Origin: Desulfobacterales bacterium | Lineage (GTDB): Bacteria; Desulfobacterota; Desulfobacteria; Desulfobacterales; UBA2156 | Assembly: GCA_027025555.1 (NCBI GenBank) | Contig: JALVQN010000109.1 | Coordinates: 1 to 36,306 of the forward strand | Direction of reading: 5' to 3' | DNA: 36,306 nucleotides | Part shown: positions 1,198 to 20,986 of the stretch, one piece after another | Numbering within the stretch: the first letter of the stretch is position 1 | How the letters are laid out: each line of letters begins with the position of its first letter | Position numbers and translations under genes: made by a program | Notes under the pieces: model-generated | The model's database searches: none | Seen by the model: the letters and a program-made list of their open reading frames with translations, nothing else | What the model was told of the DNA's origin: nothing

Positions 1198-2109
1198 TCA
1201 AGGATTCACCAACGCCCGGAGCCGGTCCAGATTGACGCGGTCATACTCTAGGGCCCCTTTGAATTTGGGGGTCTCGATGATCTTGGGGATGGCTTCGAAC
1301 CGGGGCTCCTGCATGATGAACCGGAAGGCATCCATGCCGATGTACCCTTCTCCCACATGCTCGTGCCGGTCCACCCGGGAGCCGAGCTTTCGCTTGGAAT
1401 CATTGAGGTGGATCAGTTCCAGCCGATCAAGCCCGATAATGTCGTCGAAGGCGGCCAGGGTCTTCTCATAGGCCTCTCGAGTGCGGATGTCATATCCGGC
1501 GGCAAAGATATGGCTCGTATCCAGGCAGACCGCCACCCGGTCCGGATCAAAAATCCCGTCAAGAATGGATCGGAGGTGTTCGAACCGCCCCCCCAGGCTG
1601 GACCCCTGGCCGGCCGTGGTCTCCAGCAGAAGCCGCGTCCCCGGGGCCCGGCAGGCATCAAAGACCCCGTTGATGGCGGCAATAATCTTTTGGATTCCCT
1701 CCCCCTCACCGGCGCCCATGTGGTTGCCGGGATGCAAAACGACATGGGCGATGCCCAGGGCCGAGGAACGCTCAAGTTCCTGGCGCAGGGCGTCCAGGGA
1801 CATGCGGTGTTTCCCGGGTTCCGGAGACGCCAGGTTGAGCAGATACGCCGCATGGGCGGCCACATGGGTGATGCCGGTGGCCCTTTGTGCCGCCTTGAAG
1901 GCGTCGATCTCTTCGGGCAAAAGGGTGCGTTCCTTCCAGGTGCTGGCGTTTTTGGTGAAAATCTGCAGCGCGGTGCATCCGTGAGCGGCGGCCGTCCGCA
2001 CGGCCCGGTCCAGGCCGCGGGCGATGGAAAAATGGGCTCCCAAGAGGGGCTGCCTGCCCCTTGACTTTTCAGGCGTTGTGCAGGTTGACGGATGAAAAGG
2101 CGTTGCCAT
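1198..2109 (-). CDS. nfo: deoxyribonuclease IV (AP endonuclease)
   Basis: 303 residues, a little longer than the usual 280-290 because of an N-terminal extension of about 20 residues before 'LLGAHFS'. Endonuclease IV cuts DNA 5' to abasic sites and removes blocked 3' ends, using three zinc ions in a TIM barrel. The metal-ligand motifs are visible in order: 'GAHFS', 'HAAYLLNLASP', 'LHPGNHMGAG', 'LLETTAGQG', 'CLDTSHIFAAGYD', 'LIHLNDSKRKLGSRVDRHEH' and 'IIETPK'. The ATG at 2109 has a weak ribosome site and a later non-ATG start is possible, since family members normally begin close to 'LLGAH'. It is divergent from the sigma-54 activator gene and probably leads the nfo-hydrolase pair. Confidence 0.95.
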   Translation of the reverse strand: MATPFHPSTCTTPEKSRGRQPLLGAHFSIARGLDRAVRTAAAHGCTALQIFTKNASTWKERTLLPEEIDAFKAAQRATGITHVAAHAAYLLNLASPEPGKHRMSLDALRQELERSSALGIAHVVLHPGNHMGAGEGEGIQKIIAAINGVFDACRAPGTRLLLETTAGQGSSLGGRFEHLRSILDGIFDPDRVAVCLDTSHIFAAGYDIRTREAYEKTLAAFDDIIGLDRLELIHLNDSKRKLGSRVDRHEHVGEGYIGMDAFRFIMQEPRFEAIPKIIETPKFKGALEYDRVNLDRLRALVNP

Positions 2110-2129
2110 TTTCTACATTTTTGTATTAT
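2103..2129 (+). promoter_or_regulatory. possible sigma-70 promoter of the sigma-54 activator gene
   Basis: TTGCCA at 2103-2108 and TATTAT at 2124-2129 lie on the plus strand with 15 bp between them, in an AT-rich stretch just before the activator gene. The boxes fit moderately but the spacing is short, and the -35 box overlaps the nfo start codon. This is a weak prediction; no sigma-54 site is seen here. Confidence 0.25.
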
Positions 2130-2154
2130 TTTTCAGCCATCGTTTCAAAGACCC

Positions 2155-2181
2155 GCCCGGGGCCGGGAAACGGCCCCGGGC
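2155..2181 (+). promoter_or_regulatory. 10-bp perfect hairpin in the leader of the sigma-54 activator mRNA
   Basis: GCCCGGGGCC (2155-2164) and GGCCCCGGGC (2172-2181) are exact reverse complements around a 7-base loop. There is no T-run after it on either strand, so it is not a standard intrinsic terminator. It ends 33 bases before the chosen ATG at 2215 and could stabilise the mRNA, affect translation, or shield nfo and the activator gene from each other. Confidence 0.5.
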
Positions 2182-2214
2182 ACCGATCCCAACCCGGATG
2201 CAAGGAGCTGCTCC

Positions 2215-3738: not shown

Positions 3739-3788
3739 AGCCGTCCCGGCGGATGCCGCTTTCAGGAAGCGCGCCTTGCTTTTCGCGG

Positions 3789-3811
3789 GATCGGCCCGGG
3801 ACGGCCCGATC
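3789..3811. terminator. candidate bidirectional terminator between activator gene and glnA
   Basis: GATCGGCC (3789-3796) and GGCCCGATC (3803-3811) pair with one bulged base around a 6-base loop, in the 100-bp gap between two convergent genes. The stem is strong but no clear U-run follows on either strand, so termination could be weak or factor-assisted. Confidence 0.4.
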
Positions 3812-3838
3812 AAGGGACCGCCCCGGGGAAGGAAGGGA

Positions 3839-5254
<1,416 letters not shown>

Positions 5255-5299
5255 GAGCATGCCTCCTTTGATGTAAAGATTGGATTGGAATTGAAACAA

Positions 5300-5312
5300 G
5301 CTTCAGTGAAGC
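5300..5312. repeat. short inverted repeat in the glnB-glnA gap
   Basis: GCTTC-AGT-GAAGC lies between glnB and glnA, with a T-run (5316-5320) after it only on the plus strand, where no gene is being transcribed. On the gene strand it could be a weak attenuator or processing stem, or chance. Confidence 0.2.
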
Positions 5313-5354
5313 CTCTTTTTGGGCCATCAAAATCCATAAGGGGCCTTTTTTTCA

Positions 5355-7066
<1,712 letters not shown>

Positions 7067-7085
7067 GACAATCTCCTTTCTCCAT

Positions 7086-9788
7086 TTATCTGAAGGGTTC
7101 TTGTCCTTTTTTCTGCTCCGGGACCTTTCCGGGAGGGACCGGCGGGATCCCCCCCTTTCCGGTCAAGGGATCTTTCAAGGCCGCTTCCAGGGCGGAGCGG
7201 ATCCGGGCTTCCTGGGCGGGGGTGTCCGCTTTCTGGCCTTCCAGATCCCGGACGTAAAAGACATCCACCACCTGATCCACCTTGGTGGCGATCTTGGCCA
7301 CCCGGATGTCGAGGCCGCACCGGAAGATGGCGTCGCTGACCCCGTAAAGGAGCCCGGGAAAATCGTCGGCCACCACTTCAATGAGGGTGAAAAAACTGGA
7401 ACCGGCATTGTCCACGGACACCCGGAAAGGCCGCCTGGTCCCGCGGATACGGGGCACGCCGCCTGTCGAAAATTTGTCCTTGAGGGCCCGGGAGAGGTCC
7501 AGGCTCCCGGCAAGGACCGCATCCAGGTGCATTTTGGCCCGAATCCAGCGCTCTTTTTCGAACAACCGATCCGGCGGGGGTTTCACCGTGAAAAGATCCA
7601 GGGCGGTCTGGTTTTTCCATGTAAAGGCCTGGGCATCCAGGATGTCGATGCCGTTGAGGGTGAAGACGCCGGCGATCATCGAAAAAAGGCCGGGCCGGTC
7701 CTTGGCGCACACTGTGATCTCCCGGAGGGAGGGATCCTTCCCTTGGACCACCTGCCAGACGGCCCCCTGACCCTTCAATTGCCGGTACAAGGCGATGTGG
7801 TTTAAGATGGCCCTTTGGGGGACGGCGATGAGATAGCGGGGGGACATGGCCTCCAGCAGCGCCGCCACCGCCGCCCTTTCTTCGGGCGTTTCCACCGCCT
7901 CCACCAGGGCCCGCCGCTTCCGGTGCACGGCCTCCATGGCTTCCCGGCTCGCCAGCTCTCCCCTTTCCAAGATCCTCAAGGTCTTGAGGAACAGGTCCTT
8001 CAAGAGGGCCGCGGTCCAGCTGTTCCAGGCCTTGGGGCCGGTGGCCGCGGCGTCGGCCGCGGTGAGGAGGTAGAGCATCTTCAGCCGTTCCGGGTCCTTG
8101 ACCCGCCGGGCGCAGTAAATGGCCGTCTCTTCGTCTTGAAGGTCCCGCCGCGTGGCGGTCTTCATGAGGAAGAGGTGCTCTTTCACCAAGAAAGCGACGG
8201 CTTTTGCATCGGCCGGGCTGTAGCCCTTGGCCGTCATCACGGCCTGGGCCGTGACGGCACCCTTTTGCGCATGATCCCCCCTGGAGGTGCCCTTCCCGAT
8301 GTCATGGAGCAAGGCCGCCCAAAGGAGCCGTTTCCGGTTTTTGATCTCAAAAAAGAGTCTCGTCAACAAGGGGTCCGGAGAAGTGGCTTCCTCACGGAAA
8401 CCGTGGAGGGCCTCCACCGTGTGCAGAAGATGCAGGTCCACGGGAAAAAGATGATAGGCGTCGTACTGGATGCGGTGGAGCACCCCTTTGAACTCGGGGA
8501 TGAAGGCCGACAAAAACCCGGAATCCAGCATCTCCCTGAGTACCCGGTGGGCTTGACGGCCCAAAAGGATCCGCTCGAAAGAACGGCGGACGACGGGGGA
8601 GGACCCCTCGACGAGGGGGGAAAGCTCCTGGATCAATCGCTTGGCCTCTCCGCTTAAGGGGATCTTCAAGCGAAGGCTTTGTTCAAAAATCTGAACCAAA
8701 AGGGCGGGGGCTTTCACGACCTGCTCGGGCGCCTCGAAGTAAAGCATGTCGTCTTCCACGAAAAGACCCGGGATGCCGGCCTTTGGTCGGGCCCTTTTCT
8801 TCCTTCCCGAGGGCCTGTCCAGGCCCTGTTCATACAGGAAGCGCAGGTGCTGGGATTTGATGAAATCCATGTGACCGTGCAGGATGCTGAGGAAGACTTC
8901 CACGGGCTCCTGACCGTCGGTCTTCTTGAAACCCATGGCATCGGCGAGGGCGATCTGGTTTTCAAAAAGGAGCCGATCCCACTTCCTGCCCGAAAGAAGA
9001 TGAAGGCGGTTCCGGACCTCCCAGATGAAGGCCAGGGCCCGTTGCAGGCGCTCGAATTCCCTGTGGGAGAGGCACCCCCCATACTCCAGTTCCCGGGGCG
9101 TCCTCAGGTCAAAGAGGATCCGGGCAATCCACAGCATGGTGTGATAATCCCTCAGGCCGCCTTGACCCTCCTTGAGATGCGGTTCCAAGAGACTGCTGGA
9201 ATCGCCGAACTGGAAATGGCGATTGCGGTTGGCCCGGACCAGCCGCTTGACGACCGTCTTGCCATGCTTTTTCAGGAGGGTCTCCCGGAGGGCTTCGGCC
9301 AGCCGGACGGCCACATTCGAAATGCCGCAAATGAACCGGGCATCCAACAGGGGCGTGAGGGATTCGAAATCCTTTTTGCCCAGCGCCAGGCTCTCCTTCA
9401 CGGTCCGCACCGCATACCCGACCTCCATGCCCATGTCCCACAGGGGATAGACCAGCTCCCGAATCAAGGCTTCGGCCTTTCGAGGCACCTTCTTTTCAAA
9501 CAAGAACAAGAGATCCACGTCTGAATGGACACATTGCTCCTTCCGTCCATACCCCCCCAGGGCGACGATGGCGTAGGGATTGGCGTTGATCTTCAACAGG
9601 GGGCCGATTCTTGACGATGCAAAGGCCGTGTGGAAATAAGCGTCGAAGATCTTGGCATGCTCCTGGAGAAAATCCGGGGCGCAAAGGGAGGCTTGGGCCT
9701 TGAAAAGCCGCTGACGTTGCCTTCTCAAGGCCGCGGCGGCATCATGACTTTTGGCGTCTGCCGCCGGGGTTTCTTCCATCAATGCCAC
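7086..9788 (-). CDS. glnD: PII uridylyltransferase / uridylyl-removing enzyme
   Basis: About 900 residues from a GTG at 9788, preferred to the track ATG at 9839 because AAGGAGG lies 9 bases upstream of the GTG; an ATG at 9779 is the alternative. GlnD is the glutamine sensor that adds UMP to PII when glutamine is scarce and removes it when plentiful. Domain order is classic: nucleotidyltransferase 'GGYGRKEQ...SDVDLL' (about 78-95), the central helical region, the HD phosphohydrolase domain with 'LLHDIGKG', and two C-terminal ACT domains, 'CAKDRPGLFSMIAGVF' and 'VADDFPGLLYGVSDAIF', which bind glutamine in the family. It is the first gene after the sigma-54 promoter at 9857-9872. The C-terminus ends in a short charged tail. 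Confidence 0.96.
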   Translation of the reverse strand: MALMEETPAADAKSHDAAAALRRQRQRLFKAQASLCAPDFLQEHAKIFDAYFHTAFASSRIGPLLKINANPYAIVALGGYGRKEQCVHSDVDLLFLFEKKVPRKAEALIRELVYPLWDMGMEVGYAVRTVKESLALGKKDFESLTPLLDARFICGISNVAVRLAEALRETLLKKHGKTVVKRLVRANRNRHFQFGDSSSLLEPHLKEGQGGLRDYHTMLWIARILFDLRTPRELEYGGCLSHREFERLQRALAFIWEVRNRLHLLSGRKWDRLLFENQIALADAMGFKKTDGQEPVEVFLSILHGHMDFIKSQHLRFLYEQGLDRPSGRKKRARPKAGIPGLFVEDDMLYFEAPEQVVKAPALLVQIFEQSLRLKIPLSGEAKRLIQELSPLVEGSSPVVRRSFERILLGRQAHRVLREMLDSGFLSAFIPEFKGVLHRIQYDAYHLFPVDLHLLHTVEALHGFREEATSPDPLLTRLFFEIKNRKRLLWAALLHDIGKGTSRGDHAQKGAVTAQAVMTAKGYSPADAKAVAFLVKEHLFLMKTATRRDLQDEETAIYCARRVKDPERLKMLYLLTAADAAATGPKAWNSWTAALLKDLFLKTLRILERGELASREAMEAVHRKRRALVEAVETPEERAAVAALLEAMSPRYLIAVPQRAILNHIALYRQLKGQGAVWQVVQGKDPSLREITVCAKDRPGLFSMIAGVFTLNGIDILDAQAFTWKNQTALDLFTVKPPPDRLFEKERWIRAKMHLDAVLAGSLDLSRALKDKFSTGGVPRIRGTRRPFRVSVDNAGSSFFTLIEVVADDFPGLLYGVSDAIFRCGLDIRVAKIATKVDQVVDVFYVRDLEGQKADTPAQEARIRSALEAALKDPLTGKGGIPPVPPGKVPEQKKGQEPFR

Positions 9789-9856
9789 GGCGTTTCTCCT
9801 CCTTAACCCTTTCCCCAGGTCTTTCGATGACCCGGCCACAGAACCTTTCCATCAGA

Positions 9857-9872
9857 GCAAGGCTTGTGCCAA
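9857..9872 (-). promoter_or_regulatory. sigma-54 (-24/-12) promoter of the glnD-amtB-glnB-glnA genes
   Basis: On the minus strand the sequence reads TTGGCACA-AGCC-TTGC, with the invariant GG and GC ten bases apart. It matches the sigma-54 consensus TGGCACG-N4-TTGC at all but one specified base. The predicted transcription start is near 9845, giving a leader of about 57 bases to the GTG of glnD. It needs an AAA+ activator such as the one encoded at 2215-3738. Confidence 0.85.
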
Positions 9873-9949
9873 GGCGGTTGATATATCTTTTGTTTCAATG
9901 ATTTCAATTAATTATATGATTTTGGGAAAACGACTCATTAAAAATAAAA

Positions 9950-9993
9950 TTAACAATTATGTAATAAATAGCTCATAAATTACAATTATGTAA
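9950..9993. repeat. two tandem dyads upstream of the sigma-54 promoter (candidate enhancer)
   Basis: TTACAATTATGTAA at 9980-9993 is a perfect inverted repeat (TTACA-N4-TGTAA). A second copy, TAACAATTATGTAA, at 9951-9964 differs by one base. They are 29 bp apart, about 105-150 bp upstream of the predicted start at 9845, which is the usual distance for sigma-54 activator sites. They lie in a sharply AT-rich stretch (about 9880-10000) between glnE and glnD. They match neither the NifA (TGT-N10-ACA) nor the enteric NtrC consensus. Confidence 0.55.
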
Positions 9994-10006
9994 ATAAATT
10001 CAGCCG

Positions 10007-12907
10007 TTATCCCCAAAGGAGGGTGTCCCAGGTTCTTTGGACCCCTTTCCGGAAGGTGAGGAAGCGATCGGCGGGCACCCGGGCGGGTTTTTCCTGAAGA
10101 TTGAGGCGATGGATGCTGGCGCGGTAGACCAAAAAGGCTTTTCTCAAAAGATACGCCCTGTCTTCAGGGAGGCCCCCGGCGTTCATGACAGACTGAAGGA
10201 GGCGCACGTTGTCCGTCCAGTCCAGGATTTCGGGATGCCGGTGGGCGTGACGCAACACCAGAAACTGAACGATAAATTCCACGTCCACCATGCCGCCCCG
10301 GTCTTCTTTGAGGTCGAACACGCCGGGTTCCGGCTTGAGGTGCGCCCTGCGCATGCGCTCGCGCATCTTTCGAACGGCCGATTTCAAGGGCCCTGCCTCC
10401 CGGGGACGGCCCAGCACCTCTTTCCGGACCGCTTCAAACCGGCGCACCAGGGCCGGGTCTCCGCCCACGGCCCGGGCCCGCACCAAGGCCTGGTGCTCCC
10501 AGGTCCAGGCGTGATTCAATTGGTACGCCCTGAAGGCCTCCAGGGAGCTGACCAGCACCCCTGAATGCCCGCTGGGCCGCAGCCGCATATCGATGTCGTA
10601 GAGCACGCCGGCGCGGGTGACCGCCGTCAGGATGTGGACGACCCGCTGGCCGAGACGGGTGAAGAACTGAGTGTTGTCCACGGGCCGTTTCCCGTCGGTT
10701 TGCCCCGGGATCGCGGCATGGAGGAAGACCAGATCCAGGTCCGATCGATACCCCAGCTCGATCCCCCCCAGCTTCCCATAGGCGATCACGGCGAACCCCC
10801 GGTCGCATGCCTCCTTGCCGACGGCGCTTTGAGGCCGGCCGTGCTTCGCCGTCAGGTGGCGCCATGCCAATTCCAGCACCTGTTCCAGGATCACCTCGGC
10901 AATCTCGGTGAGGTGGTCGCTCACCCGCATCAAGGGCAACACACCGGTGATATCGGAGGCCGCCACCCGCAGCACATTGACCTGCTTGAAAATGCAAAGG
11001 GTTTCAATCTGATACTCCAGTTCCTCGGGATCCACCCGGGCCAGGCGCTCCTCCAGTTCCTCTTTCAAAGCCGCCTTCCGGGGGGGCGCATAGAGAACAC
11101 GGGGATCCAAAAGCTCGTCCAACAGGACCGGATGCTGCTTCAAGAAGACCCCGATCCAGGGGCTGGCATTGATGAGGTTCATGAGATGCGTCAGTGCCGG
11201 CGGGTTTTCCAGCAGCAAGGCAAGGTAACTGGTACGGCGCTGAACAGTCCGGATGAGGTCGCATGCCCGGCCCAGCGCCACCAGGGGCGTTTCCCCGCCC
11301 GCCGCCGCCTGGAGGATCCGGGGCATGAGACGGTCCAGACGCCGCCGCCCTTCGGTGCTGAGGGCCCGGGTGGCAGCGTCGTTTCTCAAGTGCTCCAAAA
11401 GACGAAGCGCCCGGCCGGGATCCGAAAAGCCCAGTTCCGCCAAGCGGGCGCCGGCCTGTTCGGGCGTGGCCATGCCCCGCCAGATGTCCCCCAGAAACGA
11501 GAGTTCTTCATCCCCCGAAGGGGCGGGCGACCAGGTCTCCTCGGCCTGGAGCAGTTCTTGAAAATGGGCATGGACGCGCCTCCTGTGCATGTCCAACCGT
11601 TCGATAAAGGCGTCCCACCGGTCAAACCCCATGGACACGGCGAGCCTCAACCGGTCCGCGGCGTCCCGGGGGAGTCCGTGGACCTGCTGGTCGGAAAACT
11701 CCTGGAGCCGGTTTTCCGTGATCCGCAAAAAGACATACGCCTTGATAAGGTCCCGGGAGGTCCTTTCGGAAAGGATCGCCCTCTCGGAGAGCACCTGCAA
11801 GACCTCCAGGATCCCCCGCGCCTGAAGCGCCGGAATCACGCCGCCCCGGATGAGCTGAAACACCTGGCCGAAAAATTCGATTTCCCGGATGCCCCCGGGT
11901 CCGATCTTGATATCGTCTTCCAGTTTTTTTCGCCTGACCTCCATGGCGATGTTGCGCTTCATGTCCCTGAGGGCCTCGAACATGCCGTAATCCAGGTACC
12001 GCCGGTAAACAAAAGGGCGCAGGCGGCGGATGAGGGAGCGGCCGGCATCCACATCGCCGGCCACGGGGCGGGCCTTGATCCATGCGTAGCGTTCCCATTC
12101 CCGGCCGTGCGTTTGGTAGTACTGCTCCATATTGTCGAAGCTCATGACAAGGGGGCCGTTCTCGCCGTCCGGGCGGAGGCGGGTGTCCACGCGGAAGACG
12201 AAGCCGTCCGCCGAGGGACTGCCCAAAACCCGGATCAACTTCTGGCACAGACGGCTGAAAAACAGGTCGTTTCCCAGGCTGCCCCGGGCCCCTTTCGTGG
12301 CGCCGGCCTCGGGGAAGGCAAAGATCAGGTCCACATCCGAAGAAAAATTCAACTCTTTGCCCCCCAGCTTCCCCATGCCGATGACGACAAGCAGCTGGGG
12401 TCTCCCCCGGTCATCGACCGGTGTTTGGTACCGGGCGCACTGCCATCGGTGAAGATGGCGAAGGGCTCCATCGATCACGGCCTCCGCCAGCCGCGTCAGG
12501 TCCGCCATGGTCTCATGGAGGTCGGCCGCCCCCAAAAGATCGCGCCACGCAATGCGCACCATCTCCCGGCACCGGATCCGTCTCAGGGCCGACGCCAGGT
12601 GGGCTTCATCCGCGATCCCCGACAGGGCGGACCTCAAGGCGGCCGCGTATTCTTTTTCGGCATAGGACCGCTTCAAGTCCCCCGATCGGACCAGGTCCAT
12701 GAAGATGCCGGGATCCCGAATCAGGCTTGTGGCCACAAATGCGCTGACGGCAAAGACCCGGGAGACCGCTTCGGCCATCGGGGGAGGGATGGAAAAAGAG
12801 GGATCCCGGCGGCGGACGGCGGAAAGAAGCGCCTCCCGTTTCTCCATGCCCTTGGAAAGCAACGGCTCGGGAAGCCTTTCCAGGATTTTCAGGCTTTGTG
12901 CGTTCAT
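10007..12907 (-). CDS. glnE: bifunctional glutamine synthetase adenylyltransferase / adenylyl-removing enzyme
   Basis: 966 residues from the ATG at 12907 ('MNAQSLKIL'); the track start at 13051 would add 48 residues unlike the family. The ribosome site GGGGAGGGG sits unusually close to this ATG. GlnE adds AMP to a tyrosine of GlnA to switch it off and removes it again, under PII control. Two nucleotidyltransferase domains are visible. The N-terminal one (about 172), 'GMGKLGGKELNFSSDVDL', is the AMP-removing half in the family; the C-terminal one (about 705), 'AYGKLGGIELGYRSDLDL', is the AMP-adding half. It ends 218 bp before glnD and has its own upstream region shared with mvhD. Its target tyrosine is present in the GlnA here. 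Confidence 0.96.
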   Translation of the reverse strand: MNAQSLKILERLPEPLLSKGMEKREALLSAVRRRDPSFSIPPPMAEAVSRVFAVSAFVATSLIRDPGIFMDLVRSGDLKRSYAEKEYAAALRSALSGIADEAHLASALRRIRCREMVRIAWRDLLGAADLHETMADLTRLAEAVIDGALRHLHRWQCARYQTPVDDRGRPQLLVVIGMGKLGGKELNFSSDVDLIFAFPEAGATKGARGSLGNDLFFSRLCQKLIRVLGSPSADGFVFRVDTRLRPDGENGPLVMSFDNMEQYYQTHGREWERYAWIKARPVAGDVDAGRSLIRRLRPFVYRRYLDYGMFEALRDMKRNIAMEVRRKKLEDDIKIGPGGIREIEFFGQVFQLIRGGVIPALQARGILEVLQVLSERAILSERTSRDLIKAYVFLRITENRLQEFSDQQVHGLPRDAADRLRLAVSMGFDRWDAFIERLDMHRRRVHAHFQELLQAEETWSPAPSGDEELSFLGDIWRGMATPEQAGARLAELGFSDPGRALRLLEHLRNDAATRALSTEGRRRLDRLMPRILQAAAGGETPLVALGRACDLIRTVQRRTSYLALLLENPPALTHLMNLINASPWIGVFLKQHPVLLDELLDPRVLYAPPRKAALKEELEERLARVDPEELEYQIETLCIFKQVNVLRVAASDITGVLPLMRVSDHLTEIAEVILEQVLELAWRHLTAKHGRPQSAVGKEACDRGFAVIAYGKLGGIELGYRSDLDLVFLHAAIPGQTDGKRPVDNTQFFTRLGQRVVHILTAVTRAGVLYDIDMRLRPSGHSGVLVSSLEAFRAYQLNHAWTWEHQALVRARAVGGDPALVRRFEAVRKEVLGRPREAGPLKSAVRKMRERMRRAHLKPEPGVFDLKEDRGGMVDVEFIVQFLVLRHAHRHPEILDWTDNVRLLQSVMNAGGLPEDRAYLLRKAFLVYRASIHRLNLQEKPARVPADRFLTFRKGVQRTWDTLLWG

Positions 12908-12946
12908 CCCCTCCCCGGGGTGTTTCTCTTGATTTCCGATTGAAAA

Positions 12947-12987
12947 CCGATTCCCGATATTTTTGTATTGACAGGTTAGGGAATCGG
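12947..12987. repeat. 9-bp inverted repeat in the glnE-mvhD divergent region
   Basis: CCGATTCCC (12947-12955) and GGGAATCGG (12979-12987) are exact reverse complements separated by 23 bases, and the TTGACA box of the candidate plus-strand promoter lies between them. It could be an operator that loops across the -35 region, or a leader stem in the glnE transcript. Confidence 0.4.
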
Positions 12988-12996
12988 GCGTAAGAA
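12968..12996 (+). promoter_or_regulatory. candidate sigma-70 promoter for the mvhD-metVF-glt series
   Basis: A perfect TTGACA (12968-12973) is followed after 17 bases by TAAGAA (12991-12996), a poor -10 box. It is the best promoter-like pair before mvhD and would give a leader of about 145 bases. A weak -10 is what one expects of an activated promoter, but this is not shown. Confidence 0.35.
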
Positions 12997-13016
12997 AGCA
13001 AGTTCCAACGATGCAC

Positions 13017-13032
13017 AACGGTGTGCACCGTT
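13017..13032. promoter_or_regulatory. 16-bp palindrome, candidate operator
   Basis: AACGGTG-TG-CACCGTT is a near-perfect palindrome with 7-bp arms, just downstream of the candidate promoter at 12968-12996. An overlapping dyad, TGCAC-N6-GTGCA, occupies 13012-13027 and loosely recalls the NtrC site TGCACC-N5-GGTGCA. Its position suits a repressor of the plus-strand genes or a shared control site with glnE. Confidence 0.45.
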
Positions 13033-13147
13033 TCTCGGCCGATACGGCCACAAAGACAGGGACGTCTACTGCTCAAAGGAGAGGTAGGCGTTTTTTTTGC
13101 TCAAACCGGGCCCTTCAAACATGATGCTTTAAAACTGAAAACAGATC

Positions 13148-13627
13148 ATGGAAAAACCTTATCGGCTCTCGGTCTTTTTTTGTACCCGTATTGTGGAAAA
13201 CGAGGCCCCATTGCTTTCCCAGGCCCCGGAATCCGTTGAAATCCGCCCCGTCCCCATGGCCTGTTCCAGCATGGTCAAGGACCTCTTTTTGCTCAAGGCC
13301 CTCGAGGCGGGCGCTGACGCAGTGAGCGTATGGGTCTGTCCCGAAGGGGCCTGCCGGCACGTTCAAGGCAATCTGCGTGCGAAAAAGCGGGTGCAGCGGG
13401 TCCAAAGCCTTCTGGAGGACATCGGCCTGGATGGCCGGCGGCTGACCTTTTTCAACCTCGCCCCCCAAGACCGGGTCTCGATTTCAAGCCGCCTTGAAGA
13501 AATCGCCGCCCTGCTTGCCGGGATCGGGAAGAACCCGGCCGGCCCGCCCCGGTCCCGGGACGCCGAACCCGGGCCGGCAACGCCAGCCGGGCTGGAACCC
13601 AAGGCCCCTGACACCCATCCCGGATAA
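13148..13627 (+). CDS. MvhD-family iron-sulfur electron-transfer protein
   Basis: 159 residues. MvhD proteins carry a [2Fe-2S] cluster and pass electrons between a donor (hydrogenase, formate dehydrogenase or MTHFR) and HdrA in the cytoplasm. The family core is visible: 'MACSSMVKDLFLLKALEAGA' followed by 'CPEGACRHVQGN'. The usual N-terminal 'CNWC'-type motif is reduced to one cysteine (Cys12), leaving Cys12, 39, 64 and 69 as possible ligands. The last 30 residues are proline-rich and probably disordered. No strong ribosome site precedes the ATG, but an in-frame stop just upstream fixes the start. metV follows after 14 bp, as in acetogen MTHFR clusters, yet no hdrA is present in the window. 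Confidence 0.85.
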   Translation: MEKPYRLSVFFCTRIVENEAPLLSQAPESVEIRPVPMACSSMVKDLFLLKALEAGADAVSVWVCPEGACRHVQGNLRAKKRVQRVQSLLEDIGLDGRRLTFFNLAPQDRVSISSRLEEIAALLAGIGKNPAGPPRSRDAEPGPATPAGLEPKAPDTHPG

Positions 13628-13641
13628 AGGAGAACCGATTC

Positions 13642-14310
13642 ATGATTGTCGGCGAACAGAAACCCGTCCAAGAGATCCTCCAAATGGTGGCCCCCCATCG
13701 GAAATTCCTCATCCTGGGATGCGGCACGTGCGTCAAGACATGCTTTGCCGGGGGAGAAGACGAAGTGGCGCTGCTGGCATCCGCCTTGAGGCTGGCGTCC
13801 AGGAAAGACGGCCGTCCGGTTGAAATCGAAGAATTGACCGTGGAGCGACAGTGTGAGGACGCGTTCATCGCTGAAGCCGCCGAGGCCGTCTCCCGCAACG
13901 AGGCGGTGCTTTCCCTGGCCTGCGGCGCCGGGGTGCAGGCGGTGGCCCGGCGTTTCCCCCGGTCCCCGGTTTTGCCCGGTGTCAACACCACCTTCCTGGG
14001 GGTGCTGGAACACCAGGGGCTCTTCACCGAGGAATGCGCCGGATGCGGGGATTGTCAGCTGGCCGTTTTCGGCGGGGTGTGCCCCTTTTCCCGCTGCGCC
14101 AAGAAGTTGCTCAACGGCCCCTGCGGCGGCTCCCAGGAGGGCAAGTGCGAGGTGGATCCCGACACGGAGTGCGCATGGCATCTCATCATCGAGCGGCTCA
14201 GCGCCCTGGGGCGACTGGATCAGCTCAGGGCCTACGTGCCGCCCAAGAACTGGCAGACCAGCCTGTCCGGGGGTCCGCGAAAATTAATCCGGAAGGACCA
14301 CGTGATATGA
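13642..14310 (+). CDS. metV: MetV, iron-sulfur subunit of methylene-tetrahydrofolate reductase
   Basis: 222 residues. MetV is the small partner of MetF in Wood-Ljungdahl anaerobes and wires the flavin of MetF to other redox proteins through iron-sulfur clusters. Visible signatures are 'ILGCGTCVKTCFAGGE' at the N-terminus, 'LACGAGVQAVA' in the middle, and the C-terminal cysteine-rich block 'CAGCGDCQLA' followed by 'CPFSRCAKKLLNGPCGG' and 'GKCEVDPDTECAW', which is diagnostic of the family (MTHFR C-terminal domain). AAAGGAG lies just before the ATG. The stop overlaps the metF start (ATGA), which indicates translational coupling and an equimolar complex. Confidence 0.93.
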   Translation: MIVGEQKPVQEILQMVAPHRKFLILGCGTCVKTCFAGGEDEVALLASALRLASRKDGRPVEIEELTVERQCEDAFIAEAAEAVSRNEAVLSLACGAGVQAVARRFPRSPVLPGVNTTFLGVLEHQGLFTEECAGCGDCQLAVFGGVCPFSRCAKKLLNGPCGGSQEGKCEVDPDTECAWHLIIERLSALGRLDQLRAYVPPKNWQTSLSGGPRKLIRKDHVI

Positions 14311-15230
14311 ATACCGAACCGATCAGCAACCTGCACCGGGTGCTCTCCCGGGGACACTTCGCCGTCACCGCGGAATGCGGTCCGCCCCGGGGCGCCAACG
14401 GCGAGGCGGTCCGGGAAAAGGGCGCGCTCCTCAAAGGCGTGGTGGACGCGGTGAACGTCACGGACAACCAAACCGCCATCGTGCGCATGTCCAGCATCAG
14501 CGCCTGCAAACACCTTATGGACCTGGGCCTGGAGCCGGTGATGCAGATGGTCACCCGGGACCGGAACCGCATCGCCCTCCAGTCGGACATCCTGGGCGCC
14601 TATTCCCTGGGCATCAAAAACATCCTTTGCCTTTCCGGAGATCACCAGCGCTTCGGCAGTCATCCGGAGGCCCTGAACGTCTTCGACATCGACTCCATGA
14701 ACCTCCTCAGCACCGTGCGCACCATGAGAGAACAAGGCAAAGACCTGAGCGGGCACGCCCTCGACGGTGCGCCGAAGATGTTCATCGGGGCCGCGGCCAA
14801 TCCCTTCGCGGATCCCTTCGAGTACCGCGTCATCCGGTTGGCCAAGAAGATCGATGCCGGGGCGGACTTCATCCAGACCCAGTGCATCTACAACCTGGAC
14901 CGGTTCAAGGCCTGGATGGACATGGCCGCCGGGGAAGGCCTCACGGAAAAGGTCCACATCCTGGCAGGCGTGACGCCTTTGAAATCCGCGCCCATGGCGC
15001 GTTACATGGCCCAGAACGTGGCCGGCATGGATATCCCGGAACCCCTCCTCCGCCGCATGGCCGGCGTCCCCAAGAAAAAGGCGGCCCAGGAGGGCATCGC
15101 CATCTGCCTGGAGACCCTCCAGGCGCTCCGGGAAATACCGGGGGTCCACGGCGTGCACATCATGGCCATCGAATGGGAAAACCAGGTCAAAACCATCGTG
15201 GAAAGGGCGGGGCTTCTCCCGAGGCCCTGA
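14307..15230 (+). CDS. metF: methylenetetrahydrofolate reductase
   Basis: 307 residues from the ATG that overlaps the metV stop; the longer track ORF start at 14034 is inside metV and rejected. A TIM-barrel flavoprotein that interconverts methylene- and methyl-tetrahydrofolate, either to make methyl groups for methionine or as a step of the methyl branch of the Wood-Ljungdahl pathway. Typical segments are 'AECGPPRGA' at the first strand, 'DAVNVTDNQTA', 'LCLSGDHQ' and 'GADFIQTQCIYNLDRF', and late 'ILAGVTPLKSAPMARYM'. With MetV beside it, it is the short MetVF type that takes electrons from iron-sulfur partners rather than simply NAD(P)H. The direction in the cell cannot be read from the sequence. 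Confidence 0.95.
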   Translation: MNTEPISNLHRVLSRGHFAVTAECGPPRGANGEAVREKGALLKGVVDAVNVTDNQTAIVRMSSISACKHLMDLGLEPVMQMVTRDRNRIALQSDILGAYSLGIKNILCLSGDHQRFGSHPEALNVFDIDSMNLLSTVRTMREQGKDLSGHALDGAPKMFIGAAANPFADPFEYRVIRLAKKIDAGADFIQTQCIYNLDRFKAWMDMAAGEGLTEKVHILAGVTPLKSAPMARYMAQNVAGMDIPEPLLRRMAGVPKKKAAQEGIAICLETLQALREIPGVHGVHIMAIEWENQVKTIVERAGLLPRP

Positions 15231-15241: not shown

Positions 15242-16654
15242 ATGCCGAAGAAATACCATGTCGCCGTGAAGACGGCACCGCCCCGTTTCCCCGCCATCGG
15301 CAAGTATACCACCGTGGAGTTCAAGGAAGACTGCGCGGGAAGCTGCCGGGCCTGCGTCAAGAAAAAATGCGTCTACGGCGTCTTCAAGGAGACCCACGAA
15401 TACGCCCTCAGGCGAATCGATCCGGAATATCTTTACATCTGTCAGAGTTGCTTTCGGTGCGTCCAGGAATGCACCAAGGGAATCTTTTCCCGGGTGATCA
15501 ATCCGGCATACAAGAACCTGGGAACCGCCTACTGGCGCAGAGACATCCTCCATCGCCTCTGGTACCAGGCCCACTACGGAAAGATCCCCGTGTCCGGCGC
15601 CGGGTACCGCGGCCCCTTCACCGGGAAGGGGTTCGACGCCATGTGGACCGACATGTCGGAAATCGTCAGGCCCACCCGGGACGGCATCCACGGCCGGGAG
15701 TACATCAACACGAGCATCGAGCTCTCCCGCCGCCTCCCCTTCCTGACGTTCGCCCCGGACGGCGGTCCGGACTGCCGCGTGCCCGCGATTCTGGAAATCT
15801 CGATCCCCGTGCTTCTGCAGTGGCCCGAACACCTTGTCAAAACGGAATCCGCCCTCCTTTGCGCCGCCGGGGCGGCCGCCCGGCTCGGCACCCTCATGCT
15901 TCTGGATCCCGAGGATGTCACCGAGGCGCTTCTGCCCTATGCCGGCAGCATCGTCTGCCGGATCAAAGGGGACGCCTTCCAAGAATCGGCGCCCCTTATG
16001 GAAAAAATCCCCATGGTGGAAGTGGCCGACGGGCCGGACCGCACCCACATCCTCGCGCAACTGAAAAAAGTGCGACCGAACCTTCCCGTGGCCGCGGGGC
16101 TGCCCCTGACCCCGGACGCCCCGGAACAAGCCGTGGCCCTGACCGAGGCGGGGGTGGACGCCATCCACTTTTACGCCACACAAGACGGCCATGAGAAGAA
16201 TACGCCGTCGCCGCGATTCCTCAAAGACAGTATCCGCTCCGTTCACCTGGAGCTTGTGGCCCGCGGCCTCCGGCAACGGGTGAACCTCCTCTTCTCGGGC
16301 GGCATCGCCATGGCCGAACACATGGCCAAAGCCATCATTTGCGGTGCGGACGGTGTGGTGGCGGATACCGTATTGCCGGTGGCCCTGGAGTGCCGCCTCT
16401 GCTTCCGATGCCGGGAGGGCCTCTCCTGCCCCGTGGCCCTCGACCGTCCCGTCAACCGGCAATGGGGACGGCAACGGATCGTCAACCTCCTGGGCGCCTG
16501 GCACAACCAGCTCATCGAGGTGATGGGGGCCATGGGGATCCGGGAAGCCCGGCGGCTGAGAGGTGAAATCGGCCGGTCCATGCAATTTGAAGACCTGGAA
16601 CAAGAGATTTTCGCCCCGATTTTCGGGGGAAAAAAAGCCGTGGAGTCTGCCTGA
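15242..16654 (+). CDS. degenerate glutamate-synthase-like protein with two iron-sulfur motifs
   Basis: 470 residues from the ATG at 15242 (AAGGG 8 bases upstream); the longer track start at 14375 lies inside metF. The N-terminus has two cysteine sets: 'CAGSCRACVKKKC' (C-x3-C-x2-C-x4-C) and the ferredoxin pattern 'CQSCFRCVQEC'. The rest follows the FMN domain of glutamate synthase: 'LLFSGGIAMAEHMAKAIICG', then 'ALECRLCFRCREGLSCPV', and the C-terminal 'GIREARRLRGEIGRSMQFED'. The 'MSFGS', 'GEGG' and 'GGTGA' catalytic/FMN motifs seen in the next gene are missing, and the region holding them is shortened. It is therefore probably not a functional glutamate synthase; an electron-transfer or structural partner is possible. 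It starts 11 bp after metF and ends 3 bp before the true subunit. Confidence 0.82.
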   Translation: MPKKYHVAVKTAPPRFPAIGKYTTVEFKEDCAGSCRACVKKKCVYGVFKETHEYALRRIDPEYLYICQSCFRCVQECTKGIFSRVINPAYKNLGTAYWRRDILHRLWYQAHYGKIPVSGAGYRGPFTGKGFDAMWTDMSEIVRPTRDGIHGREYINTSIELSRRLPFLTFAPDGGPDCRVPAILEISIPVLLQWPEHLVKTESALLCAAGAAARLGTLMLLDPEDVTEALLPYAGSIVCRIKGDAFQESAPLMEKIPMVEVADGPDRTHILAQLKKVRPNLPVAAGLPLTPDAPEQAVALTEAGVDAIHFYATQDGHEKNTPSPRFLKDSIRSVHLELVARGLRQRVNLLFSGGIAMAEHMAKAIICGADGVVADTVLPVALECRLCFRCREGLSCPVALDRPVNRQWGRQRIVNLLGAWHNQLIEVMGAMGIREARRLRGEIGRSMQFEDLEQEIFAPIFGGKKAVESA

Positions 16655-16657: not shown

Positions 16658-18211
16658 ATGAAAATTCAAGAAAGCCCGAAGGCGGCGCTGCCCCAAACCG
16701 CGGAGACGCCGTCCCGGTTTCGCAACCCCATCGGAAAATACGTCCTGGTCAGAAACGCACGGTGTGTCGGCTGCGGACTCTGTGCGACGCTGTGTCCTTA
16801 CGGGGTCCATCCCCGATACGACGTCTATTCCCGGGCCCTCAAACCCAAAAGCCATCGATGCATCGGGTTCGCCTGCCGGCAAAACGACTTTTATTGTATC
16901 GACCGCTGCCCTGAAAAGGCGCTTACTCTCAGGCAAAATCCCATCCTGGAGACGTTGGGCGACTTCCGTTGGCCGGCCGAGATGCTCATCGGGCATTGGG
17001 AGATGGCGGAAACCGGCCGCCTGCCCGTGGTGGACCTGGAAACCGACCTGGGATGCTCCGGCGGGGGCTTCGATAAAATCCGGTTTCGCCACCCGGACCC
17101 CGACCAGTATCTGGACGTTCCGGACGAGGCCGTGGACACCGGGATCGACCTCAACAAGCGGGGAGACGGCCGGCCCAAAAAACGGCTTTCCCTCCCCTGT
17201 TACGGCGGCGGCATGTCCTTCGGCTCCACGGCCCTGTCGGTGATGGTGGGAAGGGCCCGGGCCGCCCGGCGCTTGAACACCTTAACGTGTACAGGCGAAG
17301 GCGGATATCCCCCGGAATTGATGCCGTATGCCGACCACGTCATCACCCAGATCGCCACGGGCCTTTTCGGGGTCCGGGAAGAAACCATCCTCCTGGCGCC
17401 CGTGGTGGAATTCAAGTACGCCCAGGGGGCCAAGCCCGGGCTGGGCGGACATCTTCTGGGGGACAAGGTCACGCCGGAAGTGGCGGCCATGCGGGAGACG
17501 GTGCCGGGAAACGCCCTCTTTTCACCGTTTCCCTTCCACAGCGTCTATTCGGTGGAAGACCACAAGAAACACGTGGACTGGGTGAAGGAGATCAATCCCG
17601 ACGTCCTGGTTTCGGTCAAGGTCTCCACCCCCACGGACGTGGATATGGTGGCGGTGGGAAGTTACTATGCCGGTGCTCACATCATCCACCTGGACGGGAG
17701 TTACGGCGGCACGGGCGCCGCCCCGGACATCGCCAAGAAGAACATCGCCATGCCCATCGAGTACGCCATCCCCAAGGTGCACCGCTTCATGATCGAAGAG
17801 GGCGTCCGGGACGAAATCTGCCTGATTGCCAGCGGCGGCATCCGGAACGCCATGGATGTGGCCAAGGCCATCGCCCTGGGCGCCGACGGGGTGGTCATCG
17901 GCACCGCCGAACTGGTGGCCCTGGAGTGCGTGCGCTGCGGAAACTGCGAAAGCGGACGGGGCTGCGCCCGGGGCATCGCCACCACGGATACGGAGCTGGG
18001 GTGCATGATCAGCACGCAATGGGCCGAACAGCGCCTGGTCAACATGTATGCGGCATGGCGGAAAACCTGGTGCGCCCTGTTGAGACAATACGGCCTCCGG
18101 AGCCTGAACGAACTGACAGGCCGCACCGACCTTCTGGTCCATCTCGATTACCTGGAGCCGTCGGAGCGGGCCACCTATCGCCCGGCACCCGAAGAAGCCA
18201 TCATCCTGTAA
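16658..18211 (+). CDS. glutamate synthase FMN subunit with N-terminal ferredoxin domain (archaeal GltB2 type)
   Basis: 517 residues. The N-terminus has two 4Fe-4S-type motifs, 'CVGCGLCATLCP' and 'CIGFACRQNDFYCIDRCP'; the remainder is the FMN/2-oxoglutarate domain of glutamate synthase, which reduces 2-iminoglutarate to glutamate. Intact motifs include 'CYGGGMSFGS', 'TCTGEGGYPPE', 'IHLDGSYGGTGAAP', 'LIASGGIRNAMDVAKAIALG' and the cluster loop 'CVRCGNCESGRGC'. It lacks the amidotransferase and GXGXG domains, which are fused in the next gene, so the two proteins probably form one enzyme. No NAD(P)H-oxidising GltD subunit lies nearby, so ferredoxin is the likely electron source, which is inference. 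Confidence 0.93.
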   Translation: MKIQESPKAALPQTAETPSRFRNPIGKYVLVRNARCVGCGLCATLCPYGVHPRYDVYSRALKPKSHRCIGFACRQNDFYCIDRCPEKALTLRQNPILETLGDFRWPAEMLIGHWEMAETGRLPVVDLETDLGCSGGGFDKIRFRHPDPDQYLDVPDEAVDTGIDLNKRGDGRPKKRLSLPCYGGGMSFGSTALSVMVGRARAARRLNTLTCTGEGGYPPELMPYADHVITQIATGLFGVREETILLAPVVEFKYAQGAKPGLGGHLLGDKVTPEVAAMRETVPGNALFSPFPFHSVYSVEDHKKHVDWVKEINPDVLVSVKVSTPTDVDMVAVGSYYAGAHIIHLDGSYGGTGAAPDIAKKNIAMPIEYAIPKVHRFMIEEGVRDEICLIASGGIRNAMDVAKAIALGADGVVIGTAELVALECVRCGNCESGRGCARGIATTDTELGCMISTQWAEQRLVNMYAAWRKTWCALLRQYGLRSLNELTGRTDLLVHLDYLEPSERATYRPAPEEAIIL

Positions 18212-18277: not shown

Positions 18278-20986
18278 ATGCAAAAAAAGGCATCCATGAT
18301 CCAAAAGCTTTTGTCGAGCCGGAAGCCCCTGCCCCGGCCCCCGGAAAGACCCGAGGAGATCGCCCAGGAAGGCGGTTGCGGGGTTACGGGGTTCATCGCC
18401 TCCGTGCCGGTTTCCGGCCGCCACATCTATGAACCCTCGGTGCAGATGCACAACCGGGGCAACGGCAAAGGCGGCGGCATCGCCGCCGTGGGGCTTTCCG
18501 CCGAAAGCCTGAAGGTTCCCCAGGATGTCCTGGACTCCCATTACCTGCTCCAGGTGGCCCTGCTGGATCCTGAGGCCCGGAAAGCGGTGGAAGCCCAGTA
18601 TATCGAGGGGCCCCTGGAGGTTTACAAGGCGGAAAAGGTGCCCTCCGTGGACGATTACCGCCAGGTGGCGGGCCTTGAAGTCCGGCCGCCGGACGTGTGG
18701 CGCTACTTCGTGCGCGTGAAAGCGTCCCGTCTGGACCGGTTCATCGAGGAAAACGGCCTCAGGGACATGGATCCCCGCCGGGCCGAAGACGAGTTCATCT
18801 ATCAGAATTCTTTTCGCCTCAACCAGGCGTTTTACGCCTCCCTGGGAAAACAGCGCGCCTTCGTCCTTTCCCACGGCAGGAACATCATGATTCTCAAGAT
18901 CGTGGGATACGCCGAACAGGTGGCCCAGTACTACCTTCTGGAAGATTTCAAGGCCCACGGCTGGATCGCCCACCAGCGCTATCCCACCAAAGGCCGGGTC
19001 TGGCATCCCGGCGGCGCCCACCCTTTCACCGGCATGGACGAGGCCCTGGTCCACAACGGCGATTTCGCCAACTACCACGCCGTGTGCGAATACCTGAAAC
19101 AGCATCACATCTATCCCCAGTTCCTGACGGACACGGAAGTCTCCATCCTCCTTTTCGACCTTTTGAACCGGACCTTCGGATACCCCCTGGAGTACATCAT
19201 CGAGGCCATGGCGCCCACCACGGAGTACGACTTCGACCTCCTGCCGGCTGAAAAACAGCGGATCTACCGCCACATCCAATCCTGCCACCTGGCATCATCG
19301 CCGGACGGCCCCTGGTTCTTCATCATCGCCAGGAACGCCGTGTACCAAAAGACCCTTCAGCTCATCGGCATCACCGACACGGCCATGCTCCGGCCCCAGG
19401 TCTTCGCTCTCCAGGAAGGGGACGTGCAGATCGGGTTGATCTGCTCGGAAAAGCAGGCCATCGATGCCACGCTCCAGAGCCTGGCCTCCGAGGATCCCCG
19501 TTTCGAACCCATCGCCGACAAGTACTGGAACGCCCGGGGCGGCAGCGCCACGGACGGCGGCGCCTTCATCTTTTCCGTCACAAGCGACGACGGCGAATCC
19601 GGGAAACGCCTGACCTGCACCAACAAATTCGGAGAACCGGTCCGGGTGGAGGCGCCCCGAGCGTCCGCCGACGGGCCCATACGCCTGGAAAGCCCCTCTT
19701 ACCATGCGATCCTGGATCGCGCCGCCGGGCCACCGGCGCCGGGGGCCATGGCGTCCCTGCTGGAAGCCTGCCGAGACTTCATGGGGGCGTGCGATGAAAC
19801 CCGGGTCCGCGCCTTCTGTGCCGACCTGGAGGCGCTGGCCCGAAGAGGCGACGCCCAAAAGGAATGCTGCATCGCCATCTTGACCCATCTCATGGACCGT
19901 CGCTACCCCCTGGGCCCGAAGAGGCGGCGGACGGTGCTGTGGATTTTCCGGGAAAGCCTCTCCGCCATTTTCAGGGCCTCGCCAACGCTCACGGAATCCG
20001 CTTCCGGCATGTACCGATACATCGACTGGGAACTGCGCCGCAGCCTCCGAAAGCCCCGGGAGGGGGAAACCACCCTGGTCCTGAATGCCCGGGATTTCCC
20101 GCCGGAAGGCGACGACTGCGACGCCGTCCTGATCCGGCTCGCCTACCGGATGGGATGGAAGCGCTTCATCTGTTTCGGATACCGGGGGCAGCGTTTCTGC
20201 GGATGCGGCCTTTCCAAAGGTTCCCACGGGGTCCGGATCGACGTCTACGACAGCCCCGGGGACTACCTGGCCTCAGGGATCGATGGCCTGGAGATGGTGG
20301 TGCACGCCAACGGGCAGGATCAGATCGGCCAGATCATGAAACAGGGGAAACTCGTCGTTTACGGGGATGTGGGCCAGACCTTCATGTACGGCGCCAAGGG
20401 CGGGGAGGTCTACGTCATGGGAAATGCCGCCGGCCGTCCCCTCATCAATGCCGTGGGGTCCCCCAAGGTGGTCATCAACGGCACCTGCCTCGACTACCTG
20501 GCCGAGTCCTTCATGGCCGGCGATCCCTTCAAGGGCGGCGGGTTTGTCATTTTAAACGGGGTCCGGTTCGACGGCGACGGAAACGTGGTGGACCAAGAGA
20601 CGCCCTATCCCGGCTCCAACCTCTTCTCCCTGGCTTCCGGAGGAGCGATCTTTGTGCGGGATCCCTTTAAAAAGGTGGTCTCCGACCAGCTCAACGGCGG
20701 GGAACTGGTGGATGTCTCCCTAAAGGATTGGGATTTGATCCTGCCCTATCTCAAGGAAAACGAAAGGCTTTTCGGCATCTCGGTGGAAAAGGACCTGCTT
20801 CGCGTCAACGGAAAGGCACGGCCTTTCCATGAGGTCTACCGAAAGGTCCAGGCGGTCCCCTTGAAAGTGCTCGCCGGTGCACCCGTCACCCTCGAGGAGT
20901 GGGGCGAGGACTGGGAAGAAGAACTCGAGGCGGATTCTTTTCCGGTTGATTTGAATCCAAGTTGTGCTAAAAAGGGGCTGCCCTGA
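18278..20986 (+). CDS. glutamate synthase amidotransferase + GXGXG domain fusion (GltB1-GltB3)
   Basis: 902 residues, with TAGGAG 5 bases before the ATG. The N-terminal half is a class II glutamine amidotransferase, which releases ammonia from glutamine. The catalytic cysteine is Cys34 in 'EGGCGVTGF', so a 33-residue leader must be cleaved to free it; 'MHNRGNGKGGG' and 'RYPTKGRVWHPGGAHPFTG' are family motifs. A helical linker of roughly 150 residues follows. The C-terminal third is the GXGXG beta-helix of glutamate synthase ('QGKLVVYGDVGQTFMYGAKG', 'GGAIFVRDP'). The FMN domain normally between them is in the upstream gene. In archaea GltB1 and GltB3 are usually separate; their fusion here is notable. 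It starts 66 bp after the FMN subunit gene. Confidence 0.9.
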   Translation: MQKKASMIQKLLSSRKPLPRPPERPEEIAQEGGCGVTGFIASVPVSGRHIYEPSVQMHNRGNGKGGGIAAVGLSAESLKVPQDVLDSHYLLQVALLDPEARKAVEAQYIEGPLEVYKAEKVPSVDDYRQVAGLEVRPPDVWRYFVRVKASRLDRFIEENGLRDMDPRRAEDEFIYQNSFRLNQAFYASLGKQRAFVLSHGRNIMILKIVGYAEQVAQYYLLEDFKAHGWIAHQRYPTKGRVWHPGGAHPFTGMDEALVHNGDFANYHAVCEYLKQHHIYPQFLTDTEVSILLFDLLNRTFGYPLEYIIEAMAPTTEYDFDLLPAEKQRIYRHIQSCHLASSPDGPWFFIIARNAVYQKTLQLIGITDTAMLRPQVFALQEGDVQIGLICSEKQAIDATLQSLASEDPRFEPIADKYWNARGGSATDGGAFIFSVTSDDGESGKRLTCTNKFGEPVRVEAPRASADGPIRLESPSYHAILDRAAGPPAPGAMASLLEACRDFMGACDETRVRAFCADLEALARRGDAQKECCIAILTHLMDRRYPLGPKRRRTVLWIFRESLSAIFRASPTLTESASGMYRYIDWELRRSLRKPREGETTLVLNARDFPPEGDDCDAVLIRLAYRMGWKRFICFGYRGQRFCGCGLSKGSHGVRIDVYDSPGDYLASGIDGLEMVVHANGQDQIGQIMKQGKLVVYGDVGQTFMYGAKGGEVYVMGNAAGRPLINAVGSPKVVINGTCLDYLAESFMAGDPFKGGGFVILNGVRFDGDGNVVDQETPYPGSNLFSLASGGAIFVRDPFKKVVSDQLNGGELVDVSLKDWDLILPYLKENERLFGISVEKDLLRVNGKARPFHEVYRKVQAVPLKVLAGAPVTLEEWGEDWEEELEADSFPVDLNPSCAKKGLP

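Follow-up and report, generated by a model that had tools for sequence, protein, structure and literature searches.

GltX, a conserved non-catalytic paralogue of the glutamate synthase FMN subunit, and its proposed role as an electron-input adaptor

Glutamate synthase is one of the chief routes by which nitrogen enters metabolism, and the electron inputs known for it are NAD(P)H (through GltD), ferredoxin and possibly F420. In the 36,306-nt stretch of a Desulfobacterales contig analyzed here (the window), the intact FMN subunit gene gltB2 is preceded by a second gene of the same family whose product lacks the catalytic motifs, and the operon contains no gltD. What does such a protein do beside an intact synthase? 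An earlier note on this DNA had described it as a decayed-core paralogue with two Fe-S motifs and proposed an electron adaptor linking MetVF, MvhD and glutamate synthase. We labeled the gene gltX and its product GltX, and examined its sequence, its predicted structure and its partners in other genomes. GltX is probably an adaptor subunit through which electrons enter an archaeal-type glutamate synthase, in place of the Fe-S relay of GltD.

Operon layout and genomic context

The operon order is mvhD-metV-metF-gltX-gltB2 followed by the GltB1/GltB3 fusion gene and then by carA, carB and purF (Table 1). GltB2 is separate and GltB1 is fused to GltB3, which makes this an archaeal-type glutamate synthase. 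The ORF coordinates bore out the tight placement of gltX between metF and the intact subunit, with gaps of 11 bp on the metF side (metF ends at 15230) and 3 bp before the gltB2 start at 16658. The metV stop and metF start overlap in an ATGA (14307-14310), a sequence arrangement that suggests translational coupling. Nitrogen-control genes occupy positions 2092-13051 of the window: a sigma-54 activator with a GAF domain (2092-3738, plus strand), an ammonium transporter (5765-7066, minus), a GlnD-type protein (7086-9839, minus) and GlnE (10007-13051, minus). Since glnE, glnD and the transporter gene lie on the opposite strand upstream of the operon, we regard the locus as a nitrogen-assimilation island. 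An SbcC/SbcD-like gene pair downstream (29936-34149, minus strand) is unrelated to gltX.

Table 1. Features of the operon and of the GltX protein in the window.
Feature	Position	Strand	Description	Basis
mvhD/flpD-like electron carrier	13148..13627	+	4 conserved Cys, no hdrA alongside	Pfam FlpD 2e-22; family alignment
metV	13642..14310	+		Pfam DUF5981/MTHFR C-terminal 1e-36
metF (methylene-THF reductase)	14307..15230	+		Pfam MTHFR 6e-41; start counted from ORF translation
gltX	15242..16654	+	470 aa, ATG to TGA; non-catalytic GltB2 paralogue, proposed electron-input adaptor subunit	ORF, homologues, conservation, model
First Fe-S cysteine set of GltX	15332..15370	+	C31-x3-C35-x2-C38-x4-C43	Invariant 50/50
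Second Fe-S cysteine set of GltX	15440..15472	+	C67-x2-C70-x2-C73-x3-C77	Invariant 50/50
GltX signature	15644..15700	+	WTDMSEIVRPTRDGIHGRE, residues 135-153; absent from GltB2; served as search pattern	(Nearly) invariant
Eight-stranded alpha/beta barrel of GltX	15809..16363	+	Residues 190-374, without GltB2 catalytic motifs	AlphaFold2, pLDDT mostly >85
Third cysteine set of GltX	16391..16429	+	C384-x2-C387-x2-C390-x5-C396 (CxxCxxCx5C), at the site of the GltS cluster loop	Invariant 50/50
gltB2	16658..18211	+	Intact FMN/synthase subunit, N-terminal Fe-S cysteines	Pfam Glu_synthase 1e-88; catalytic motifs; alignment to 2vdc/1ea0
Fused glutaminase (GATase_6) + GXGXG subunit (GltB1+GltB3)	18278..20986	+	902 aa	Pfam

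The two Glu_synthase genes of the window were the only ones found in its 96.8%-complete genome. The same genome has about nine HdrA-like loci and nine MvhD-like matches; the operon has mvhD, metV and metF, as in the HdrABC-MvhD-MetVF (Moorella-type) arrangement, with no hdrA adjoining and the HdrA-like loci elsewhere. Two further metV copies were found (G000:C217:6133-10283 and C149:12809-13090), and the C217 copy follows HdrA and an MvhD whose reading frame contains a TGA (possibly selenocysteine), an order similar to the HdrA-MvhD-MetV arrangement of Moorella. Given these extra copies, one of them beside HdrA and MvhD, the metVF of the operon need not be the catabolic one. Searches with GltX gave no relative in viral contigs and only partial matches of 28-30% in plasmids, thus no sign of a mobile element, and NCBIfam and PADLOC searches assigned it to no family.

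Sequence, selection and predicted structure of GltX

GltX gave a single Pfam match, to Glu_synthase (PF01645) over residues 258-433 (E=1e-12; 1e-88 for the neighboring GltB2, P0002). BLASTP aligned it to the GltB2 of the window at 26% identity (6e-32), and hhalign extended the homology to nearly full length (probability 100, E=5e-57, 28% identity over 410 columns). A column-by-column alignment with 30 GltB2 proteins found none of MSFGS, GEGG, QGAKPGxGG, the KVST lysine and GGTGA in the GltX columns; these FMN/2-oxoglutarate-site motifs are kept in all 30 GltB2, with MSFGS invariant save for F/Y at one position. The KYAQGAKPGLGG...SPFPFH loop is gone through a deletion of ~44 residues that takes in QGAKPGxGG. 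The motif loss described earlier (MSFGS, GEGG and GGTGA) was thus confirmed, and the same alignment was searched for FMN or 2-oxoglutarate residues conserved in another form and gave none. GltX keeps the GG of the first phosphate loop (353-354) and GAD (368-370), but 46 of 50 GltX have Asp375 where GltB2 has the IG-T of the second phosphate loop (G415/T416). In an FMN barrel, loss of this Gly-Thr speaks against normal FMN phosphate binding.

All eight N-terminal cysteines are present in 170 of 172 aligned GltX; of the two sequences without the full set, one comes from a truncated contig and the other is a divergent protein of Planctomycetota. The cysteine pattern of both sets predicts [4Fe-4S] clusters. 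The two N-terminal sets reported by the earlier note were therefore upheld, but the total is three when C384-C396 is counted. This third set is the cluster loop which, as had been noted, is retained together with the C-terminal framework of glutamate synthase. It was lost in seven GltX of the GlcD class (see below) and in one fusion (8 losses); judged from these sequences, the predicted C-terminal cluster is dispensable. Besides the cysteines and WTDMSEIVRPTRDGIHGRE, the C-terminal helices are conserved. As a member of the GltB2 family GltX has the PF01645 homology, the barrel fold and the post-barrel cysteine loop, and it lacks the catalytic motifs. The Pfam search detected no FAD/NAD(P)H Rossmann domain (Pyr_redox_2) with Fer4_20, as a GltD-type input subunit would have.

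Against a same-genus homologue the dN/dS of GltX was ~0.18 (approximate, with dS near 1). Columns conserved at >=95% were most frequent at residues 91-165 (49%) and least frequent in the barrel stretch 166-330 (3%), the only part of the protein that evolves freely. AlphaFold predicted the barrel with confidence and the N-terminal Fe-S region (residues 23-85) poorly, at pLDDT <50; Foldseek matched the barrel to IMPDH, lactate/glycolate oxidase and GltS barrels including that of Synechocystis GltS (1ofd). A model of the GltX-GltB2 read-through, with the TGA of the window read as W, reached a pTM of 0.64, too weak for an interface or clusters, and carries no weight in what follows. A pseudogene or decaying gene was ruled out by the low dN/dS and the conservation across phyla. 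The conserved sequence, the low dN/dS and the confident barrel make GltX a conserved non-catalytic paralogue, and the description of its core as decayed did not hold for a protein with eight predicted barrel strands that belongs to one old clade in several phyla.

Partners, fusions and distribution

We collected 166 unique loci by GltX similarity alone, so that the neighboring genes were not selected for, and de-duplicated them by DNA identity only. All 153 informative loci have gltB2 directly downstream of gltX or fused to it; a script identified 151 of these, and L146 and L147, whose GltX and GltB2 matches overlap by a few bases, make up the rest. Homologues are therefore always linked to gltB2, not scattered. 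GltX and GltB2 form a single polypeptide in at least 13 loci of several families and phyla, including Phycisphaerae, Latescibacterota and one member of the window's own family. The strongest evidence for the position of GltX comes from genome G139, where a 2,528-aa protein (L139:1969-9552) adjoining glnA and carA has the order FAD_binding_4/FAD-oxidase_C, Fer4_8, GltX, GltB2, GltB1, GltB3, which places GltX between a dehydrogenase and the synthase. L140 and L222-L224 share this gene order, and G102 and its relatives have the same order, split or fused.

Upstream of gltX, one of two redox modules is almost always found. Among the 120 loci with at least 3.3 kb of upstream DNA, 107 have MvhD, 12 have a GlcD-type FAD/Fe-S flavoprotein, none has both and one has neither. 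The exception, L197, keeps all 12 cysteines; MvhD was detected by tblastn, and a very divergent MvhD may be missed, perhaps so in L197. The flavoprotein, absent from the window, is ~615 aa long with FAD_binding_4, FAD-oxidase_C and a C-terminal Fer4_8 dicluster, and matches glcD (1.6e-32) and LctD of lactate dehydrogenase (1.7e-22). The MvhD loci comprise 72 with MvhD-MetV-MetF, 15 with MvhD only, 12 with MvhD-MetV and 4 with MvhD-MetF, the rest having MetV/F moved downstream (2) or a doubled MvhD (2). The region upstream of gltX in L143 and L213 holds a pair of MvhD-like genes that flank or interleave metV/metF. Eight loci (L142, L172, L183, L189, L193, L195, L202 and L226) have metV immediately upstream of gltX and no detected metF; their sequences suggest that MetV may serve the complex without MetF. 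The co-occurrence with mvhD held, MvhD being the near-constant partner within the main clade, and the proposed link was not specific to MetVF: many loci lack MetV, MetF or both, which were gained or lost several times, and the whole GlcD-type lineage has neither MvhD nor MetVF.

Two groups of operons serve as controls, and both fit a GltX placed between dehydrogenase and synthase. The GltB2 operons L246 and L247 have no GltX and carry a GltD-type NAD(P)H/FAD/Fe-S domain after the GXGXG protein (Pyr_redox_2 + Fer4_20 confirmed for L246). Five divergent GltX of Planctomycetota and Chloroflexota (L235, L236, L237, L244 and L245) have no MvhD or GlcD input module detected upstream and retain no more than four of the eight N-terminal cysteines; one set is left in four of them and none is evident in L244. 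Upstream ORFs in L235, L236, L244 and L245 were considered as new partners and rejected as spurious. In two Desulfobacula-type loci (L079 and L088), the GltX-type operon is immediately preceded, at ~2.0-6.0 kb, by another GltB2 of 26% identity and by a GXGXG protein that includes a GltD-like part, which puts two GOGAT types side by side.

GltX homologues were found in ~24 of 96 order-level genomes and, within the window's phylum, in roughly 100 of the 395 genomes sampled (about a quarter); they are rare in Planctomycetota (5/199 genomes) and Chloroflexota (5/251). A species-level scan confirmed at least 557 relatives of the family query, and Omnitrophota, Armatimonadota and Latescibacterota are among the best 80 of these that were examined. 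The GltX clade (16 rows) is monophyletic and separate from GltB2, with support of 100/99 and recovery in 100% of bootstrap trees. Mixed GltX + GltB2 alignment rows around a fusion, in which GltX had been misaligned onto the GltB2 half, were dropped. The GltB2 partners of GltX are also monophyletic (100/97), and thus a single old duplication suffices. In the GltX tree, whose rooting is uncertain because of a long outgroup, the MvhD users form one clade (97/87) with the GlcD users outside; MetV/MetF were gained or lost at least four to five times along it, and MvhD is kept in all but one. Since the MvhD/GlcD switch happened about once on this tree, the counts of 107 and 12 are not independent trials and have a smaller statistical weight.

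Proposed role of GltX and comparison with known systems

In the mechanism we favor as the likely one, GltX descends from an old duplication of GltB2, has given up the FMN/2-oxoglutarate site, makes no glutamate, and has retained a GltB2-like shape and Fe-S binding sites. It would dock on GltB2, and electrons from the redox protein encoded upstream would run along the two N-terminal [4Fe-4S] clusters of GltX, and usually a third, to reach the GltB2 clusters and FMN. GltX would thus be a relay without a pyridine-nucleotide site, in place of the Fe-S relay of the NADPH subunit GltD. In known GltS, two [4Fe-4S] clusters at the GltD N-terminus relay FAD electrons to the [3Fe-4S] cluster and FMN of the alpha subunit (PMC8097209), an architecture that matches the proposed one. 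The donor would be exchangeable: an MvhD-type protein (here with MetVF) or, in other lineages, the GlcD-type flavoprotein through its Fe-S end. The cluster content, docking, flow and direction of electrons and identity of the final donor are what we infer from features established at the sequence level: paralogy, lost catalytic motifs with eight invariant N-terminal cysteines, constant adjacency to gltB2, fusions, and the swap between mutually exclusive MvhD and GlcD modules. The same role is supported by the GltD-type domain of GltX-free operons, by the loss of Fe-S cysteines in the divergent GltX that lack a module, and by an operon without GltD in a genome without another Glu_synthase gene. 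Of the earlier adaptor proposal we thus retain the Fe-S adaptor for glutamate synthase and drop the part specific to MetVF.

In GltS the central domain precedes the FMN domain, as GltX precedes GltB2 in the fusions, and GltX might accordingly be a structural pseudo-enzyme that pairs with GltB2 in the manner of the truncated-barrel central domain, with structural or vestigial clusters. A truncated alpha/beta barrel, which may have arisen by duplication of the FMN barrel, helps to line the ammonia tunnel in bacterial GltS (PMC8097209), and the five divergent GltX persist with few or no clusters. However, GltX scores 48.3 bits against the FMN domain and 16.7 bits against the central domain, the GltX-free operons L246 and L247 have glutaminase, FMN and GXGXG parts, and the eight invariant cysteines and the MvhD/GlcD partners would be left unexplained, so we consider a purely structural role unlikely. 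That GltX is an active flavoenzyme with another substrate is very improbable: the eight predicted strands and the conserved GG and GAD of the phosphate-binding region are compatible with it, but the second phosphate loop has given way to Asp375 in most GltX, the low conservation of residues 166-330 is unlike that of an active site, and no alternative catalytic residues are apparent in that stretch.

The operon might also reflect co-regulation only, MvhD-MetVF making methyl-THF and GltX/GltB2 making glutamate with no physical or electron link. The neighborhood is indeed an island of nitrogen and one-carbon biosynthesis (glnE, glnD, amt, carAB, purF), the presence of MetV and MetF is variable, and MetVF can work with HdrABC-MvhD alone, as in Moorella (PMC6085437). 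On the other hand, MvhD is a non-catalytic electron carrier and stays by GltX in the 15 loci where MetV and MetF are both absent, no hdrA-like neighbor recurs among the gene clusters of the operons examined, and in the sister lineage GlcD, GltX and GltB2 are physically joined by fusion; we judge mere co-regulation quite unlikely.

For the adaptor GltX, the electron source in this organism could be methyl-THF via MetVF, HdrA in trans or ferredoxin; HdrA in trans is conceivable given the HdrA-like and MvhD-like genes elsewhere in the genome, and MetVF is no more than a candidate donor. A bolder and rather doubtful extension is that these glutamate synthases run directly on organic donors and not on NAD(P)H or ferredoxin, using methyl-THF oxidation (MetVF-MvhD) in sulfate reducers and a 2-hydroxy acid (GlcD-type) elsewhere. 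Published potentials of about -200 mV for the methyl-THF couple (PMC6895022), about -240 mV for the GltS FMN and -280 to -190 mV for its [3Fe-4S] cluster (PMC8097209) leave room for a methyl-THF-driven enzyme. If this extension is true, ammonia assimilation would be tied to C1 or hydroxy-acid oxidation through GltX. More generally, a widespread clade seems to employ a dedicated pseudo-enzyme adaptor with exchangeable dehydrogenase modules, which, if true, would account for the electron supply of glutamate synthase in anaerobes that have no GltD-linked GOGAT; GltX may serve as a natural system for how a duplicated enzyme turns into an electron relay, and it allows a direct coupling of glutamate synthesis to the C1 pathway to be put to the test.

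HdrABC-MvhD-MetVF complexes, F420-dependent glutamate synthases and GltD insertions into HdrA are described in the literature; our search, of incomplete coverage and no proof of novelty, found no GltX-like subunit and no MvhD/MetVF- or GlcD-linked glutamate synthase. With GltB2 and the GltS FMN domain (PF01645; Azospirillum brasilense alpha subunit 1ea0/2vdc) GltX shares full-length ancestry, the barrel, the C-terminal cluster loop and the tail, and it differs in the missing motifs, the ~44-residue deletion, the spacing of the first N-terminal cysteines and the unique WTDMSEIVRPTRDGIHGRE block. It resembles GltD, the NAD(P)H-oxidizing beta subunit, in the proposed relay of two [4Fe-4S] clusters and occurs where the operon has no GltD, whereas it has no NAD(P)H/FAD Rossmann domain, its barrel is unrelated and it would depend on a separate protein, MvhD or GlcD-type, for electrons. 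The MvhD/FlpD systems (HdrABC-MvhAGD and the Moorella HdrABC-MvhD-MetVF) are similar in having mvhD, metV and metF in one operon, but the GltX operon has no HdrABC and its partner is glutamate synthase. The F420-dependent glutamate synthase of methanogens and ANME archaea (FrhB + GltS subunits) is likewise an archaeal-type GltS with a non-GltD input; its input is FrhB/F420, and its descriptions mention no GltX (PMC3087415, PMC9012536). The ~615-aa partner is similar in sequence to GlcD/LctD-type FAD dehydrogenases and differs from them by its own C-terminal Fe-S dicluster and its linkage or fusion to GltX. The archaeal-type GOGAT itself is known; what appears new is the proposed adaptor subunit with swappable inputs upon it.
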